From the NCBI GenBank assembly GCA_018606805.1, contig JAGYWI010000003.1, forward strand, positions 1 to 64,000: a DNA stretch of 64,000 nt, given 5' to 3'. A program made the position numbers and the translations under genes. The number at the start of each line of letters is the position of its first letter. The stretch's first letter is position 1. The DNA comes from Candidatus Magnetomicrobium cryptolimnococcus (GTDB taxonomy: Bacteria > Nitrospirota > Thermodesulfovibrionia > Thermodesulfovibrionales > Magnetobacteriaceae). Shown one piece after another: positions 28,843-35,809 of the stretch. Below the pieces are notes generated by a model, which saw nothing but the letters and a program-made list of their open reading frames with translations, was not told where the DNA came from and made no database searches.

Positions 28843-30093
28843 GTGACGTTTAATTTAAATGAATTTTTATTGGCAGTATCTTTTGCAATAGATGCCGTAG
28901 AAATGGAAATACTTGGTGTCAACTCCAATCACGGTAAAAGAGTCGGATACATAGCAATAAGGATGGCAGAGGTCTTTGGACTATCACAAGAAGAGATATT
29001 TGACCTACTTTCTTTATCAATTATGCACGATAATGCCATCAGTGAGGAATTGCTTAAATCCCAGCCGATGATAAAAACCATGGACAACTTTCAAAGGGTA
29101 GAAACACTAATGACGCATTGCAGTATTGGTGAAAAGAACATTAGAAAATTCCCGTTTTTAACATCTCCTAAAAGCATTATAACATATCATCATGAAAATT
29201 ATGACGGGAGTGGCTTTTTTGGTTTAAAAGGACAAAAAATCCCTCTAATGGCACAGATTATCTCATTTGCAGACTTTACAGATTTCCTTTTTAGTTTTGA
29301 TAATCAAGATATAAATAATCGTGAAAAGATTATTGATTACGTAAAAGAACAAAAAGGCAAACGACTCTCACCTGATATAGTGGAAGCATTTCTTGAAAAT
29401 GCTCAATACATAAGTTTCTGGTTAGACCTCCAAAACCATAACATAAATGATGCCATAGGCCAAAGACTTCCCTCCCTTACAAAGGAACTGTCTTGGTACG
29501 ACATATTTCAAATAACCGATGTCTTTAGCAATATCATTGATTGTAAATCCAAGTTTACGCAGTGGCACTCCATTGGGCTTAATGCAAAGGCATCAATATT
29601 AGCCAAACACTACGGCAAAGATGAAGAAGAACAAATAAAATTATCAATAGCTGCAAACGTGCACGACCTTGGAAAACTAACTATCCCTAATTCCATACTG
29701 GATAAACCGGATAAACTAACTAAAGCGGAGTTTAGCGTAATCCAAACACACACTTATTATACAAGATACTGCCTTAAAGACATAAAACCGTTTAATGAGA
29801 TAACGGAATGGGCGGCTAACCACCACGAAAAATTAGACGGCGGCGGTTACCCATATGGGTTTAAGGCCGATAGGCTTGACTTTAATTCACGAATGATATG
29901 CTGCCTTGACATCTATCAAGCCCTAACAGAGGAAAGACCATATCGCAAAGAGCTTCCCCACGAACAGGCCATGGATATACTAAGAGCATTGGAGAAAAAT
30001 GGCCAGATTGATTCACTCATCGTAAACGATATAGATAAGGTATTTGAAGATATAATATTTTATAAAAGTTTTTATAGTCCTTTTTCTGGTTGA
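28843..30093 (+). CDS. Double HD-domain protein with C-terminal HD-GYP phosphodiesterase, 416 aa
   Basis: The start is GTG behind CGGAGGAAATAAG. The first half is an HD-like domain (SIMHD near 57-60, then HHENYDGSGFFG). The second half is an HD-GYP domain with VHDLGKLTIP, an intermediate His (QTHTYYT) and HHEKLDGGGYPYG, as in enzymes that hydrolyse cyclic di-GMP. Two HD modules in one chain occur in this family. The gene is convergent with the RuBisCO-like gene, and the two 3' ends overlap by 22 bp. No sensor domain is present. Confidence 0.85.
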   Translation: MTFNLNEFLLAVSFAIDAVEMEILGVNSNHGKRVGYIAIRMAEVFGLSQEEIFDLLSLSIMHDNAISEELLKSQPMIKTMDNFQRVETLMTHCSIGEKNIRKFPFLTSPKSIITYHHENYDGSGFFGLKGQKIPLMAQIISFADFTDFLFSFDNQDINNREKIIDYVKEQKGKRLSPDIVEAFLENAQYISFWLDLQNHNINDAIGQRLPSLTKELSWYDIFQITDVFSNIIDCKSKFTQWHSIGLNAKASILAKHYGKDEEEQIKLSIAANVHDLGKLTIPNSILDKPDKLTKAEFSVIQTHTYYTRYCLKDIKPFNEITEWAANHHEKLDGGGYPYGFKADRLDFNSRMICCLDIYQALTEERPYRKELPHEQAMDILRALEKNGQIDSLIVNDIDKVFEDIIFYKSFYSPFSG

Positions 30094-31658
30094 TCTCGCA
30101 CGTGATCTACTATACAAAAGAAACCAAACGTTTCATTACTGGTATTTTTCAATTGGTGGGGGGTTGAAGGCGGTACGTAGGCAATATCATATGGATTGAG
30201 GGTATAGGTATTTTGGCCACACTTAAGCATACCTTCACCCTTTAGACATATGATGACGTGCTCATGTACGTGTTTTTCAAAGCTTGAATAACCGTTCGGT
30301 TCTATTTGAAAATATCGTAAGTCAAAGGAGGTGCTTTCTCCATTTTTGCCTGTTAGCTCGTGGCGGGTTATTTTACTAAAATCAATATTGCTGTCAGTTT
30401 TATATAAAACAGGTTGGCGACCTGACCACATACAACTTGTGTTGTTAAATTTCATATATTCAAGTAATTTAGAGCTTGAGTGCCCTATTTCACAGGCTGA
30501 GACAAATTGTTTATCCGTTGGCGTGGTTTTATATTCGTTAAAATATAACGCTATCTTTTCCATAAATATCTTTGTTGCCTTTTCGAGGTTTGTATCATAG
30601 CCATGAAGTGCCCCACCTATTAAATATACAACATCCGGCCCGTAGTGTTTAGCCATATCCTCTATGTTATCTATAGACATCCCACCAGCGGGAGCTCCAA
30701 ATGCACCTTTTAACTTACCAAGCGGTTTTGTTGCAAGCCGTGCATTTATCTCCTTACACTCATCTAATGTAAAGCCAAAACGTCCACCCGTGTTTGGATA
30801 TACTGAAATATCTGCACCAAACAAGCGAAAAAGAGTTCCAAGCAATACAGTGGCCGATATGCCGTGGGCTGAGTAACTAAAGAAAGTGCCGGTAAGGGCA
30901 GGATGAGCCATTATTATAAATCCATACTGTTTACTGATATAACGCATAATGTCGGCTCCCATAAGGAATGGGGAGACTAAAACGCCCTCTACGGAAAGTC
31001 TCTTGGCATAGTCAAGAGTCCTTTCTATTTCCTCAAAGTTTACACATATGTTTGGAAAGTATAGGGTCTTTTGCCCTGTTTTAGCATACACAGTTGAAAC
31101 AGCATCTTGACACCTTGCAACACGTTCGTAAAAATTGCTAAAACTTTGGTTATCAAGGCCATGGTCATCTTTTATAATATCACCACCACCAAGAGCAAAT
31201 GACTTAGCAATGGCGGCAAATTCTTTCGGCTCAAGCCCCATAGGTTTTAATGCTGTACTAAAAAGCGGCCTTCCCCATATACCAGTTAATTGTCTTATAC
31301 CACTGATACCGTATGCAGGGCCAAAAAAGTGCTCAAGGAAACTATCAGGAAAGGCTACATTGACTATCTTAATATTATTTTTAAGCGAAATATTACCGTA
31401 TAAGAGATTTAATAGTTGTGGAATATTGTGTCCACTTATTTCAGGATTATATGCTATAATAACGCTGTATAAATGTGGTTTTTCATTTACTTGATTTATG
31501 CTTTGAACTTTTCCGATAATACTCTTGCGGATAAATGCCGATTGCACAAGCTCATCTGGCAGCTCTACTGTTTGTTCGAGGGCAATTTCTCTGCATATTG
31601 TCCGAATATCCTCATCTGCCCTTATGGTTATTTCATATGTTATATCAATTGTGTCCAA
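30072..31658 (-). CDS. RuBisCO-like protein (form IV) fused to a cupin domain, 528 aa
   Basis: Residues 1-420 form a RuBisCO large-subunit fold. Lys138 (ALKPMG) matches Lys175 of true RuBisCO, and Lys163-Asp164-Asp165-His166 (IIKDDHGL) matches the carbamylated Lys201 region, with Glu204 replaced by His. The loop-6 Lys and His327 positions are changed (YPNTGGRFGF), so CO2 fixation is not expected. Residues 448-520 form a cupin with HVHEHVIICLKGEG (His463, His465, His467) and PPSTPHQLKN (His501). In Rhodospirillum rubrum a RuBisCO-like protein isomerises MTRu-1-P to MTXu-5-P and a separate cupin then yields DXP. This fusion would join both steps, which is inference. The start is TTG, as no in-frame ATG exists. 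Confidence 0.88.
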   Translation of the reverse strand: MDTIDITYEITIRADEDIRTICREIALEQTVELPDELVQSAFIRKSIIGKVQSINQVNEKPHLYSVIIAYNPEISGHNIPQLLNLLYGNISLKNNIKIVNVAFPDSFLEHFFGPAYGISGIRQLTGIWGRPLFSTALKPMGLEPKEFAAIAKSFALGGGDIIKDDHGLDNQSFSNFYERVARCQDAVSTVYAKTGQKTLYFPNICVNFEEIERTLDYAKRLSVEGVLVSPFLMGADIMRYISKQYGFIIMAHPALTGTFFSYSAHGISATVLLGTLFRLFGADISVYPNTGGRFGFTLDECKEINARLATKPLGKLKGAFGAPAGGMSIDNIEDMAKHYGPDVVYLIGGALHGYDTNLEKATKIFMEKIALYFNEYKTTPTDKQFVSACEIGHSSSKLLEYMKFNNTSCMWSGRQPVLYKTDSNIDFSKITRHELTGKNGESTSFDLRYFQIEPNGYSSFEKHVHEHVIICLKGEGMLKCGQNTYTLNPYDIAYVPPSTPHQLKNTSNETFGFFCIVDHVRDQPEKGL

Positions 31659-31724: not shown

Positions 31725-31920
31725 ACTAAAAAAAACTTGATCATCGGGTAAAGAGATGACAGTCCAAAAGTTTTAGGAAAGGGGGTGCGGGGGAAGAACC
31801 CTTTTTCAAAAGGGTTTTCCCCCGCATCCTCTATCTTTTTTTTCTTTTTTTTCTTTTTTTCTTTTTTTCTTTTTTTCTTTTTTTCTTTTTTTTTCTTTTT
31901 TTTTCTTTTTTTTTTCTTTA
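31725..31920 (-). repeat. Family B element ending in a pure pyrimidine tract of about 90 nt
   Basis: The + strand shares ACTAAAAAAAACTTGA and AAAGTTTTAGGAA with the copy at 3140. A hairpin then pairs GGGGGAAGAACCCTTTTT with AAAAGGGTTTTCCCCC, and CGCATCCTCTATC is followed by a T/C-only tract at 31822-31919, largely repeats of CTTTTTTT. The tract ends about 10 bp before the -10 box of the thiamine operon. Confidence 0.8.
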
Positions 31921-32111: not shown

Positions 32112-32312
32112 ATGGAAATTATATTAAACGGTGAAGCATATTTAGTGAAAAGGGCAAATACTGTTAGTGGGCTTCTTGATGAGCTTGGGGTTAAGTCTGA
32201 ATTGGTGGCAGTTGAAATCAATATGAACATTATAAAAAGAGCGGATTATATAAACAAAAAAATCAATGGAGGTGATAGGGTAGAGATAGTTAATTTTGTA
32301 GGTGGTGGTTAA
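32112..32312 (+). CDS. thiS: Sulfur carrier protein ThiS, 66 aa
   Basis: A ubiquitin-fold sulfur carrier. It starts MEIILNGE, and the middle is [11 protein letters not shown]. It ends in Gly-Gly-Gly, whose C-terminal Gly-Gly is thiocarboxylated and delivers sulfur to ThiG for the thiazole ring. First gene after the riboswitch. The adenylating enzyme ThiF is not in the window. Confidence 0.95.
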
Positions 32313-32343
32313 TTTCAATCAAATTAAAAACGGCAGGAGATAT

Positions 32344-33114
32344 ATGGACGATACATTAATAATAAGAGGGATAGAGTTTAAGTCGAGATTATGGGTAGGC
32401 AGTGGAAAATACAAAGATTTTGAAGAAACGGCTAAGGCGATAGAGGCTTCTGGTTCGGATGTGGTAACGGTGGCTACTAGAAGGGTAAATATTACAGATA
32501 GGAAAGCCCCTAACTTGCTTGACTATATAGACCCTAAAAGGTATAAGATTTTGCCAAATACGGCTGGCTGTTACACGGTGGAAGATGCCCTGCGTTATGC
32601 GCGTCTTGGCAGGGAGGCTGGGATTTCAGACCTTGTTAAGCTTGAGGTTATTGGCGATGAAAAGACGCTTTTTCCTGATGTTTGCGGGTTACTTCAGGCA
32701 ACTGAGATACTTGCAAAAGAGGGATTTATAGTTTTACCATATACGACTGATGACCCGGTTGTGGCTAAGCGGCTGGTTGAAGCAGGGGCGGCTGCGGTTA
32801 TGCCGCTGGGGGCGCCTATAGGTTCGGGGCTTGGTATTAGGAATCCATACAATATTAAGATAATATTAGAAACGGTTAAAATACCGGTGGTGGTGGATGC
32901 TGGTGTAGGGACGGCCTCGGATGCTGCTATAGCCATGGAGCTTGGGTGTGATGCGGTACTTATAAACACAGGGATTGCAGGGGCTAAGGATGCCATATTA
33001 ATGGCAACGGCTATGAAGTATGGGGTTTTGGCTGGACGCGCTGCATTTAAGGCGGGTAGGATTGGCAAAAAACTCTATGCCAGTGCTAGTAGTCCGTTTG
33101 AGGGTATGCTTTAA
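32344..33114 (+). CDS. thiG: Thiazole synthase ThiG, 256 aa
   Basis: A TIM-barrel enzyme that condenses 1-deoxy-D-xylulose 5-phosphate, dehydroglycine and ThiS thiocarboxylate into the thiazole phosphate. Family motifs: [30 protein letters not shown] and [19 protein letters not shown] place the start at ATG 32344, behind AGGAGA, not at the GTG at 32302 that overlaps thiS. It is in the same operon as thiS, 31 bp downstream. Confidence 0.95.
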
Positions 33115-33115
33115 G

Positions 33116-33730
33116 GTGGATTTCAAGTTATATTTAATAACAGACCGTAATATGCCAAAGGGAGGATTGGTGGCTGCCATTGAAGAGGCATTGATAGCTG
33201 GTGTACGGGCTGTGCAGCTTAGGGAAAAGGACATTAGTGTCAAGGATTTAACGGAGTTAGCTATAAAGCTAAGGGTGCTTACGAGTAAGTATGGGGCAAA
33301 ATTTCTAATAAACGACCGCTTGGATGTGGCATTAAGTGTTGGGGCGGATGGTGTGCACCTTGGGCAAAGCAGTTTTACTGCTGATGTGGTGCGACGGGTT
33401 GTGGGGGATAGACCGTTTATTATAGGCGTATCTACGCACGGTGTGGATGAGGCGATGAAGGCTCAGGATAAGGGGGCTGATTTTATCACAATTGGGCCGG
33501 TGTACGAAACCGCGTCAAAGCTGCAATATGGAGTCCCCGTTGGGGTTACCATTATTGAGGAAGTTAAGGAGTGGGTACAGATACCATGCTTTGCCATTGG
33601 CGGAATTAAGACCGATAACGTTAAGGAAGTGTTAGATTACGGGGCAGATGGTGTAGCCCTTATCTCTGCAATATTAGCCGCTGACGATGTGCGCAGGGAA
33701 AGTGAAAAATTTATGGAGTTATTAAAATGA
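33116..33730 (+). CDS. thiE: Thiamine-phosphate synthase ThiE, 204 aa
   Basis: Joins HMP-PP and thiazole phosphate to thiamine phosphate. Motifs: LYLITDRN, AVQLREKD, FLINDRLDVAL, GVHLGQ, STHG and ADFITIGPVYETASK. I choose GTG 33116, right after the thiG stop, because the family begins with FKLYLITD. An open frame extends upstream to 33020 but reads through thiG and is unlikely to be used. The 3' end overlaps thiC (ATGA). Confidence 0.92.
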   Translation: MDFKLYLITDRNMPKGGLVAAIEEALIAGVRAVQLREKDISVKDLTELAIKLRVLTSKYGAKFLINDRLDVALSVGADGVHLGQSSFTADVVRRVVGDRPFIIGVSTHGVDEAMKAQDKGADFITIGPVYETASKLQYGVPVGVTIIEEVKEWVQIPCFAIGGIKTDNVKEVLDYGADGVALISAILAADDVRRESEKFMELLK

Positions 33731-35010
33731 ATAAAATAGAAGCAGCCCGCAAGGGTATAATCACTGAAGAGGTACGGGAGGTGGCTGCATTTGAATCAAT
33801 AGATGCAGAGAGGCTTTCAAAAGACATAGCCGATGGGTTTACCGTAATAACAAGAAACATTAACCACAACATTAAGCCATTGGGCATAGGGCGCGGGCTT
33901 AGCACTAAGATTAATGCAAACATAGGGACATCGAAAGACCACATATCCGTTGAAGAGGAGCGCATGAAGCTTGAGATGATAATCAAGTACGGGGCTGATG
34001 CTGTTATGGACTTATCAACGGGGGGACCTTTAAAGGAGCTTAGACGGACGCTTACGGAAAAATCCCCTATTTCCATAGGCACCGTTCCAATATATGAAGC
34101 GGTTGTTATGGCTGTGGAAAAGTACGGCTCTATTACTAAGATGACGGTAGATGACCTTTTTGATGTAATTGAAGCCCACGGGCTAGAATCGGTGGATTTC
34201 ATAACAGTCCACTGCGGCTTAACAAGAAACGCTATAGAGCACCTGAAGGCTCAAAGGCGCAAGCTTGATGTAGTAAGCCGTGGCGGGGCTTTTTTACTTG
34301 AGTGGATGATTTATAATGATAAGGAAAACCCCCTTTATGAAAACTACGACCGTCTACTTGAGATAGCTAAGAAGTACGATATGACGCTTAGCCTTGGTGA
34401 TGGCTTACGGCCGGGGTGTATTGAAGATGCTACCGATAGGGCACAAGTTGAAGAGCTTTTAACGCTTGGTAAGCTGCAAAAGACAGCACTTGAAGCCGGT
34501 GTACAAGTTATTATAGAAGGACCTGGACATGTCCCATTAAACCAAGTTGAGATGAACATAAAGCTACAAAAGAAACTCTGCAATAATGCCCCATTTTATG
34601 TACTGGGACCGCTTGTAACGGACATTGCTATGGGCTATGACCACATAGCAGCAGCCATAGGCGGGGCTATTGCAGGGGCGGCAGGGGCGGATTTCCTTTG
34701 TTATGTAACGCCGTCTGAGCATATAAGGCTACCAAGCGTGGATGACTGCATTGAAGGTGTGATAGCGTCAAAGATAGCTGCACACGCAGCTGATATATGT
34801 AAGGAAGTGCCGGGGGCTCTTGCCAAGGACCAGCTTATGGCTAAGTATAGAAAGGGGCTTGATTGGAAGGGACAAATTTCTATGTCCTTTAATCCAGAGA
34901 AGGTTGAAAAGATGCGTGAGCATATACCGCCAAAGGAAAAAGAGGTATGCAGTATGTGTGCCGATTTTTGTGCTATTAAAACAGTGGAGCGCGCACTTGC
35001 TGGACGTTAA
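33727..35010 (+). CDS. thiC: Phosphomethylpyrimidine synthase ThiC, 427 aa
   Basis: A radical SAM enzyme converting aminoimidazole ribotide to HMP-phosphate. The C-terminal cluster-binding motif is CSMCADFC (Cys-x2-Cys-x4-Cys). Other hallmarks are GADAVMDLSTGG, FITVHCGLTRNA, LSLGDGLRPG and GPGHVPLNQV. The size fits the shorter bacterial ThiC form. It overlaps thiE by 4 nt. Confidence 0.96.
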   Translation: MNKIEAARKGIITEEVREVAAFESIDAERLSKDIADGFTVITRNINHNIKPLGIGRGLSTKINANIGTSKDHISVEEERMKLEMIIKYGADAVMDLSTGGPLKELRRTLTEKSPISIGTVPIYEAVVMAVEKYGSITKMTVDDLFDVIEAHGLESVDFITVHCGLTRNAIEHLKAQRRKLDVVSRGGAFLLEWMIYNDKENPLYENYDRLLEIAKKYDMTLSLGDGLRPGCIEDATDRAQVEELLTLGKLQKTALEAGVQVIIEGPGHVPLNQVEMNIKLQKKLCNNAPFYVLGPLVTDIAMGYDHIAAAIGGAIAGAAGADFLCYVTPSEHIRLPSVDDCIEGVIASKIAAHAADICKEVPGALAKDQLMAKYRKGLDWKGQISMSFNPEKVEKMREHIPPKEKEVCSMCADFCAIKTVERALAGR

Positions 35011-35023
35011 AACCCATGGGGAA

Positions 35024-35809
35024 ATGGCAAAGGCCCAAAAGACAGCCTTAACGATAGCGGGCTTTGATCCAACGGGAGGGGCCGGTATACAGGCGGATTT
35101 AAAGGTGTTTCATAGCTATAACGTCTACGGGTTTTCCGCAGCGACCTCCATAACTGCCCAAAACAGTCAGGGCGTTAAACACGTCGAGGGGCTTAGTAAC
35201 AAGCTCGTGCAAAGGCAGTTAGATGTCCTTTTAGAGGATTTCACGCCTGATGCCCTTAAAACAGGTGTATTATTTGGAGTGCCCACGGTATACACTATTT
35301 ATGAAGTCATATCAACCTATAAGCTTAAAAACCTTGTAATAGACCCAGTGCTTATAGCCTCGGCTGGTGTTGAGTTGGCAGCAGCTGGTACTGTTAAGGC
35401 TATTAAGGAAATGCTTATGCCCTGTGCAGCGGTGATAACGCCAAATATACCGGAGGCTCAGATATTTACAGCACTTAGTATTAAAAACCTTGAGGATATG
35501 AAAGAAGCCGCAAGACGGTTTATAGATTTTGGCGTTAAGGCGGTCGTTATTAAGGGAGGACACCTTGAAAGTACACCGATAGACGTGTTTTATGACGGTA
35601 AGGATTTCGTATTATTTACCTCACCAAGGACCCAAGGGGAATATCATGGCACTGGCTGTGTGTTTTCAGCGGCAATAACGGCAAACCTTGCCCTTGAAAA
35701 GCCCTTAACAGAAGCCATCGGTCAAGCTAAGACAAAGGTTACAAATGCCATTGAGGGGGCTAATAACTTACGTCATAAATACACAGGGATGAAATTTCTT
35801 GCCATCTAA
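35024..35809 (+). CDS. thiD: HMP/HMP-phosphate kinase ThiD, 261 aa
   Basis: A ribokinase-fold enzyme that phosphorylates hydroxymethylpyrimidine twice. Motifs: LTIAGFDPTGGAGIQADLK, TSITAQNSQGV, ITPNIPEA, VVIKGGH and HGTGCVFSAAI (anion hole/catalytic Asp region is HGTGC). ATG 35024 is chosen because the family starts just before this segment; the frame extends upstream through thiC. Fifth gene of the operon. Confidence 0.94.
   Translation: MAKAQKTALTIAGFDPTGGAGIQADLKVFHSYNVYGFSAATSITAQNSQGVKHVEGLSNKLVQRQLDVLLEDFTPDALKTGVLFGVPTVYTIYEVISTYKLKNLVIDPVLIASAGVELAAAGTVKAIKEMLMPCAAVITPNIPEAQIFTALSIKNLEDMKEAARRFIDFGVKAVVIKGGHLESTPIDVFYDGKDFVLFTSPRTQGEYHGTGCVFSAAITANLALEKPLTEAIGQAKTKVTNAIEGANNLRHKYTGMKFLAI

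Follow-up and report, generated by a model that had tools for sequence, protein, structure and literature searches.

A RuBisCO-like protein fused to a cupin in Magnetobacteriaceae, a predicted two-step enzyme of the MTA-isoprenoid shunt

The window, i.e. the whole stretch of 64,000 nucleotides of Candidatus Magnetomicrobium cryptolimnococcus DNA that was analysed, harbors a gene coding for a RuBisCO-like protein (RLP) domain, a linker and a cupin domain in one open reading frame (Table 1). The minus-strand ORF with its two parts had been proposed in the first-pass annotation and was recovered in the ORF list and by Pfam, which matched RuBisCO_large at residues 116-353 (4.9e-29) and Cupin_2 at residues 448-515 (1.5e-12); the KDDH motif and the four cupin histidines were found exactly at the residues given there. 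Homologues at about 50-57% identity span the entire fused protein, and the TTG start is supported by the alignment of their N-termini at this point. The full-length AlphaFold2 model has a mean pLDDT of 90.4, with the disordered part of the linker lying between two folded domains. A fold search with the whole model matched the RLP domain alone, and the cupin was therefore modelled separately. The fused gene is convergent with an HD-domain gene (28843-30093), their 3′ ends overlapping by 22 bases (30072-30093).

Table 1 Features of the fused gene, with positions in the window and residue numbers of the fused protein.
Feature	Position	Strand	Remarks
Fused gene: RLP domain, linker and cupin domain	30072..31658	-	528 aa, TTG start
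RLP domain, residues 1-374	30537..31658	-	DeepYkr clade; predicted MTRu-1-P 1,3-isomerase; PDB match 3qfw and tree
KDDH motif, residues 163-166	31161..31172	-	K163, D164 and D165 invariant; carbamylated Lys/metal ligands of the RuBisCO fold
Linker, residues 375-408	30435..30536	-	385-395 predicted disordered (AlphaFold2 pLDDT <50)
Linker Cys389 in S-[SA]-C-[DE]	30492..30494	-	Motif counts in linkers
Cupin domain, residues 409-528	30075..30434	-	Rru_A2000 family; predicted MTXu-5-P methylsulfurylase
HxHxH metal ligands His463, His465, His467	30258..30272	-	Invariant in fused, paired and standalone cupins and three PDB cupins
His501, fourth cupin histidine, within PHQ 500-502	30156..30158	-	Invariant
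Cys515, GF[FL]C motif (GFFC in the window protein)	30114..30116	-	Invariant in all groups including Rru_A2000

The best PDB match to the RLP part is 3qfw, an RLP from R. palustris (1.5e-72), which also ranks first in Foldseek and is presumably RLP1 (RPA2169), since RLP2 has an entry of its own, 2qyg. A tree built from 77 sequences of RLPs and Rubisco places the window RLP in a clade with 3qfw and the RLPs having a neighbouring cupin (support 100/100), and the MtnW/YkrW enolases, Photo RLPs and form III Rubisco are located outside this DeepYkr clade. The placement in a form IV tree, proposed earlier as a check, thus came out with R. palustris RLP1 and not among the YkrW enolases. Residues K138, K163, D164, D165 and R293 are identical in the window protein, all fused rows and 3qfw. 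The loss of the loop-6 Lys, also noted in the first-pass annotation, was confirmed, as the position is occupied by Arg293 in the window protein and in RLP1 and by the retained Lys in Rubisco; a bona fide Rubisco was rejected on this residue and on KDDH in place of KDDE. The RLP domain is a DeepYkr member with predicted MTRu-1-P 1,3-isomerase activity.

Taken alone, the cupin part groups with Rru_A2000 and its orthologues by sequence, profile and fold and not with unrelated cupins, which answers a second check proposed for it. The closest structures by sequence are 3ibm (Halorhodospira), 3jzv (Rru_A2000) and 3kgz (R. palustris), all with values of 1.7e-15 or better, and other cupins follow at 1e-6 or worse, about nine orders of magnitude weaker. 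With the family profile the values are 4.9e-45, 2.5e-37 and 7.4e-38, respectively, the next family being TM1459 with 5e-15. The cupin-only model has a pLDDT of 93, and Rru_A2000 ranks first among its fold matches. Residues R448, Y449, F450, E461, H463, H465, H467, H501 and C515 are invariant among the fused, paired and standalone cupins and the three structures; Cys515 and Glu461, together with a conserved Cys389 in the linker, come in addition to the residues listed previously. The cupin domain is accordingly best described as metal-dependent and, by likeness to its family, as a predicted MTXu-5-P methylsulfurylase of the Rru_A2000 type. As sugars are bound by AraC-type cupins and the cupin part also matches Pfam AraC_binding (2e-07), a non-catalytic domain that senses or binds the product and regulates the RLP was considered as well, but it is very improbable given that the metal ligands and Cys515 are invariant and that, in R. 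rubrum and R. palustris, independently encoded members of the family act as enzymes (PMC4334135, PMC5893883).

The whole protein is likely to be a bifunctional MTRu-1-P isomerase/MTXu-5-P methylsulfurylase producing 1-deoxyxylulose-5-phosphate (DXP). Both activities are predicted from homologues in which they have been proven genetically and biochemically, the architecture, clade, active-site residues and pathway genes being observed in the genomes themselves. MTA from polyamine synthesis would undergo phosphorolysis by MtnP, and MtnA would isomerise the product to 5-methylthioribulose-1-phosphate (MTRu-1-P). The RLP domain would then move the carbonyl (1,3-isomerisation) to give 1-methylthioxylulose-5-phosphate (MTXu-5-P), from which the metal-dependent cupin domain would strip the methylthio group with a thiol, leaving DXP. 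Joining the two domains may channel the intermediate or may just keep them at a fixed stoichiometry. In R. palustris the 1,3-isomerisation by the DeepYkr RLP1 and the methylsulfurylase step of the cupin were shown with deletions and labelled MTA (PMC5893883), and in R. rubrum the formation of a glutathione-methylthiol adduct requires the cupin (PMC4334135). With the window RLP at only 36.5% identity to RLP1, the substrate may have shifted.

The supporting genes were sought in the genome of the window. MtnA (2.4e-129, above the cut-off), the MTA phosphorylase MtnP (MTAP model, 2.0e-90), AdoMet decarboxylase and Dxs are all present; owing to Dxs, DXP supply does not depend on the shunt. The acireductone dioxygenase (ARD) model found nothing either in this genome, the fused gene included, or in any of the 19 family genomes, so that the oxygen-dependent classical salvage is unavailable. 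This bears on the reading in which the RLP part is the DK-MTP-1-P enolase (MtnW) of classical methionine salvage and the cupin part is acireductone dioxygenase-like: MtnW enolase is indeed the best NCBIfam name for the RLP part, and MtnD and the window domain are both cupins, but with 200 bits the RLP part stays below the MtnW cut-off of 409, the MtnW structures are excluded from the DeepYkr clade with 100/99 support, and the cupin part matches Rru_A2000. A YkrW/MtnW enolase was rejected on the tree and the score, and the classical salvage reading as a whole is extremely improbable.

The draft of the window's genome is 98.5% complete, and neither the glutathione synthetase GshB (PF02955) nor the bacillithiol enzyme BshC was found in it. 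O-acetylhomoserine sulfhydrylase gave weak partial matches only; among the 19 family genomes it is present in two, a glutathione synthetase domain is partially matched in one, and the absences are otherwise family-wide. Thus, the assignment of the fusion to the MTA-isoprenoid shunt for this lineage holds as far as MtnP, MtnA, AdoMet decarboxylase and the missing acireductone dioxygenase are concerned, but two components carried over from R. rubrum, glutathione as the thiol and the regeneration of methionine by O-acetylhomoserine sulfhydrylase, are not supported here. Due to the absence of glutathione synthetase and BshC, the shunt probably runs with a thiol other than glutathione in this lineage, and removing MTA and supplying DXP may be more important functions of it than the recovery of methionine.

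It was also considered that the main substrate could be a related 5-deoxypentose phosphate, e.g. 5-deoxyribulose-1-phosphate from 5′-deoxyadenosine, with 1,3-isomerisation giving DXP directly and MTA conversion being a side activity. Anaerobes must dispose of the 5′-deoxyadenosine made by radical SAM enzymes. The MtnA of M. jannaschii acts on both substrates (PMC6302742), and a cupin is not always encoded beside a DeepYkr RLP. Nevertheless, this is quite unlikely: every fusion examined retains a demethylthiolating-type cupin with its full set of residues, which is sensible solely for a methylthio substrate, and no report of the direct conversion of 5-deoxyribulose-1-phosphate by an RLP was found in the literature.

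The fusion is present at full length in 16 of the 19 Magnetobacteriaceae genomes, that of the window included, as a fragment in one more and not at all in two, one of which is 64% complete; in all six other family members sampled, a single open frame spans both domains. A single-protein query scan of the genome contigs yielded no confirmed relatives, and an alignment-based search did find them. The best 80 loci of this search in named genomes comprise 55 one-ORF fusions, 19 pairs of separate neighbouring genes and six RLPs without a cupin in the locus, one of the latter ending at a contig end. The fused loci come from at least nine phyla (Nitrospirota, Planctomycetota including Scalindua, Firestonebacteria, FCPU426, KSB1, Fibrobacterota, Pseudomonadota, Hydrogenedentes and Sumerlaeota), as taken from the titles of records that are mostly metagenome-assembled. 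An assembly error as the source of the fusion is ruled out by the 16 family genomes and the 55 of 80 loci.

One clade (100/97) holds all 32 fused RLPs tested and, in addition, four RLPs without a cupin in the locus, a distribution that fits a single fusion event, followed by spread between phyla and some losses. Side-by-side RLP and cupin genes are found in many relatives outside the fused clade. In Terrarubrum flagellatum, too, the two genes are separate and adjoining. One genome of the window's order (G093, locus L028) harbors an unfused, overlapping RLP/cupin pair, neither partner of which is the closest relative of its fused counterparts. Three cupin-less DeepYkr RLPs (L010, L011 and L015), belonging to one family of the window's phylum, are followed by a tmRNA-like sequence (GGGGGCGAACGGCTTCGACGGGG...) within about 30 bases downstream of the stop.

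No mtnA or mtnP gene was detected flanking any RLP locus examined, and an operon with these genes was rejected for that reason; apart from synteny over short distances inside the family, the neighbourhood shares no more than HD-domain and sensor genes of common types. In the window, a thiamin cluster thiG-thiE-thiC-thiD is located at 32302-35809 on the other strand, about 640 bases from the fusion. ThiG uses DXP. This adjacency is not conserved at other fused loci and was given no weight as a functional hint. Between the fusion and thiG there is a T-rich low-complexity run (TTTTTTTC repeats) at 31835-31900 and beyond.

In comparison with the R. rubrum shunt (Rru_A1998 RLP and Rru_A2000 cupin), the same two families act consecutively, the cupin fold and residues match, and MtnP and MtnA are present; however, R. 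rubrum has two separate proteins instead of one, uses glutathione as the thiol (PMC4334135), for which the synthetase was not found in the window's genome, and recycles methanethiol with O-acetylhomoserine sulfhydrylase, also not found there. R. palustris shares the DeepYkr RLP clade and the cupin family (RPA2169 and RPA2170), whereas its genes are separate, with consecutive locus numbers, and its RLP has the limited identity given above. Fusions of consecutive methionine-salvage enzymes are known from Tetrahymena, namely MtnBD and MtnAK, although these join other enzymes, in an oxygen-dependent route and in a eukaryote (PMC3698126, PMC6302742). A 'type IV RubisCO' has been noted in magnetotactic Nitrospirota and in Scalindua profunda (PMC10278575, PMC11344931, PMC8353452, PMC3655542), and the relevant passages of these papers leave its role open or suggest sulfur metabolism and mention no cupin domain. 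The XS-1 (Magnetocorallium) genome carries the same fusion (L003/L032), and the Scalindua, Planctomycetes and Magnetobacterium sequences lie within one clade of the RLP tree. No description of an RLP-cupin fusion was found in the literature searched, a set without the first R. rubrum reports (Erb 2012, Warlick 2012).

The attached cupin suggests a specific and testable job for this 'type IV RubisCO', that is, the conversion of MTA to DXP without oxygen, a role that would cover magnetotactic Nitrospirota, Scalindua, Planctomycetes and several uncultured phyla. The shunt turns MTA, a sulfur-containing waste product, into an isoprenoid building block, with other bacteria using two enzymes in succession, and it would extend far beyond proteobacteria into genomes seemingly without glutathione, where the thiol chemistry must therefore differ.

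The linker motif S-[SA]-C-[DE], counted as the pattern [SAT]C[DENS], occurs in 45 of the 59 distinct fused linkers, in 7/13 standalone cupins, where it sits in the N-terminal tails, and in none of the 20 unfused neighbouring cupins, and a similar cysteine pattern is rare among other ORFs of the fetched loci. The fusion could be imagined as a self-contained demethylthiolating enzyme for glutathione-less cells, in which the mobile Cys389 would resolve a methylthio adduct on the cupin, a thioredoxin-like protein would be the final reductant and MTXu-5-P would be passed between the domains unreleased; we regard this as rather unlikely. The motif is not essential, since some family members do not have it, and the case for Cys389 as a glutathione substitute is weakened by its absence from some members without glutathione genes, e.g. 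L006.

Many genomes of the window's order encode MtnA, MtnP and a standalone cupin of the same clade while lacking an RLP. These cupins (L029 7992-8525, L030 7840-8298, L031 6126-6680, L144-L149 and L151) are 39-48% identical to the window's cupin, and the cupin tree unites them with the fused ones in a 100/100 clade. They are nested inside the fused cupins in the best free tree, and a single clade of fused cupins is likewise compatible with the data (AU test, p 0.58). The idea that standalone cupins are certain products of RLP loss was dropped, as this test leaves the direction either way. One genome of the order (G052) has a form III Rubisco above the NCBIfam cut-off (L132 407-1690) and a standalone cupin at L149.
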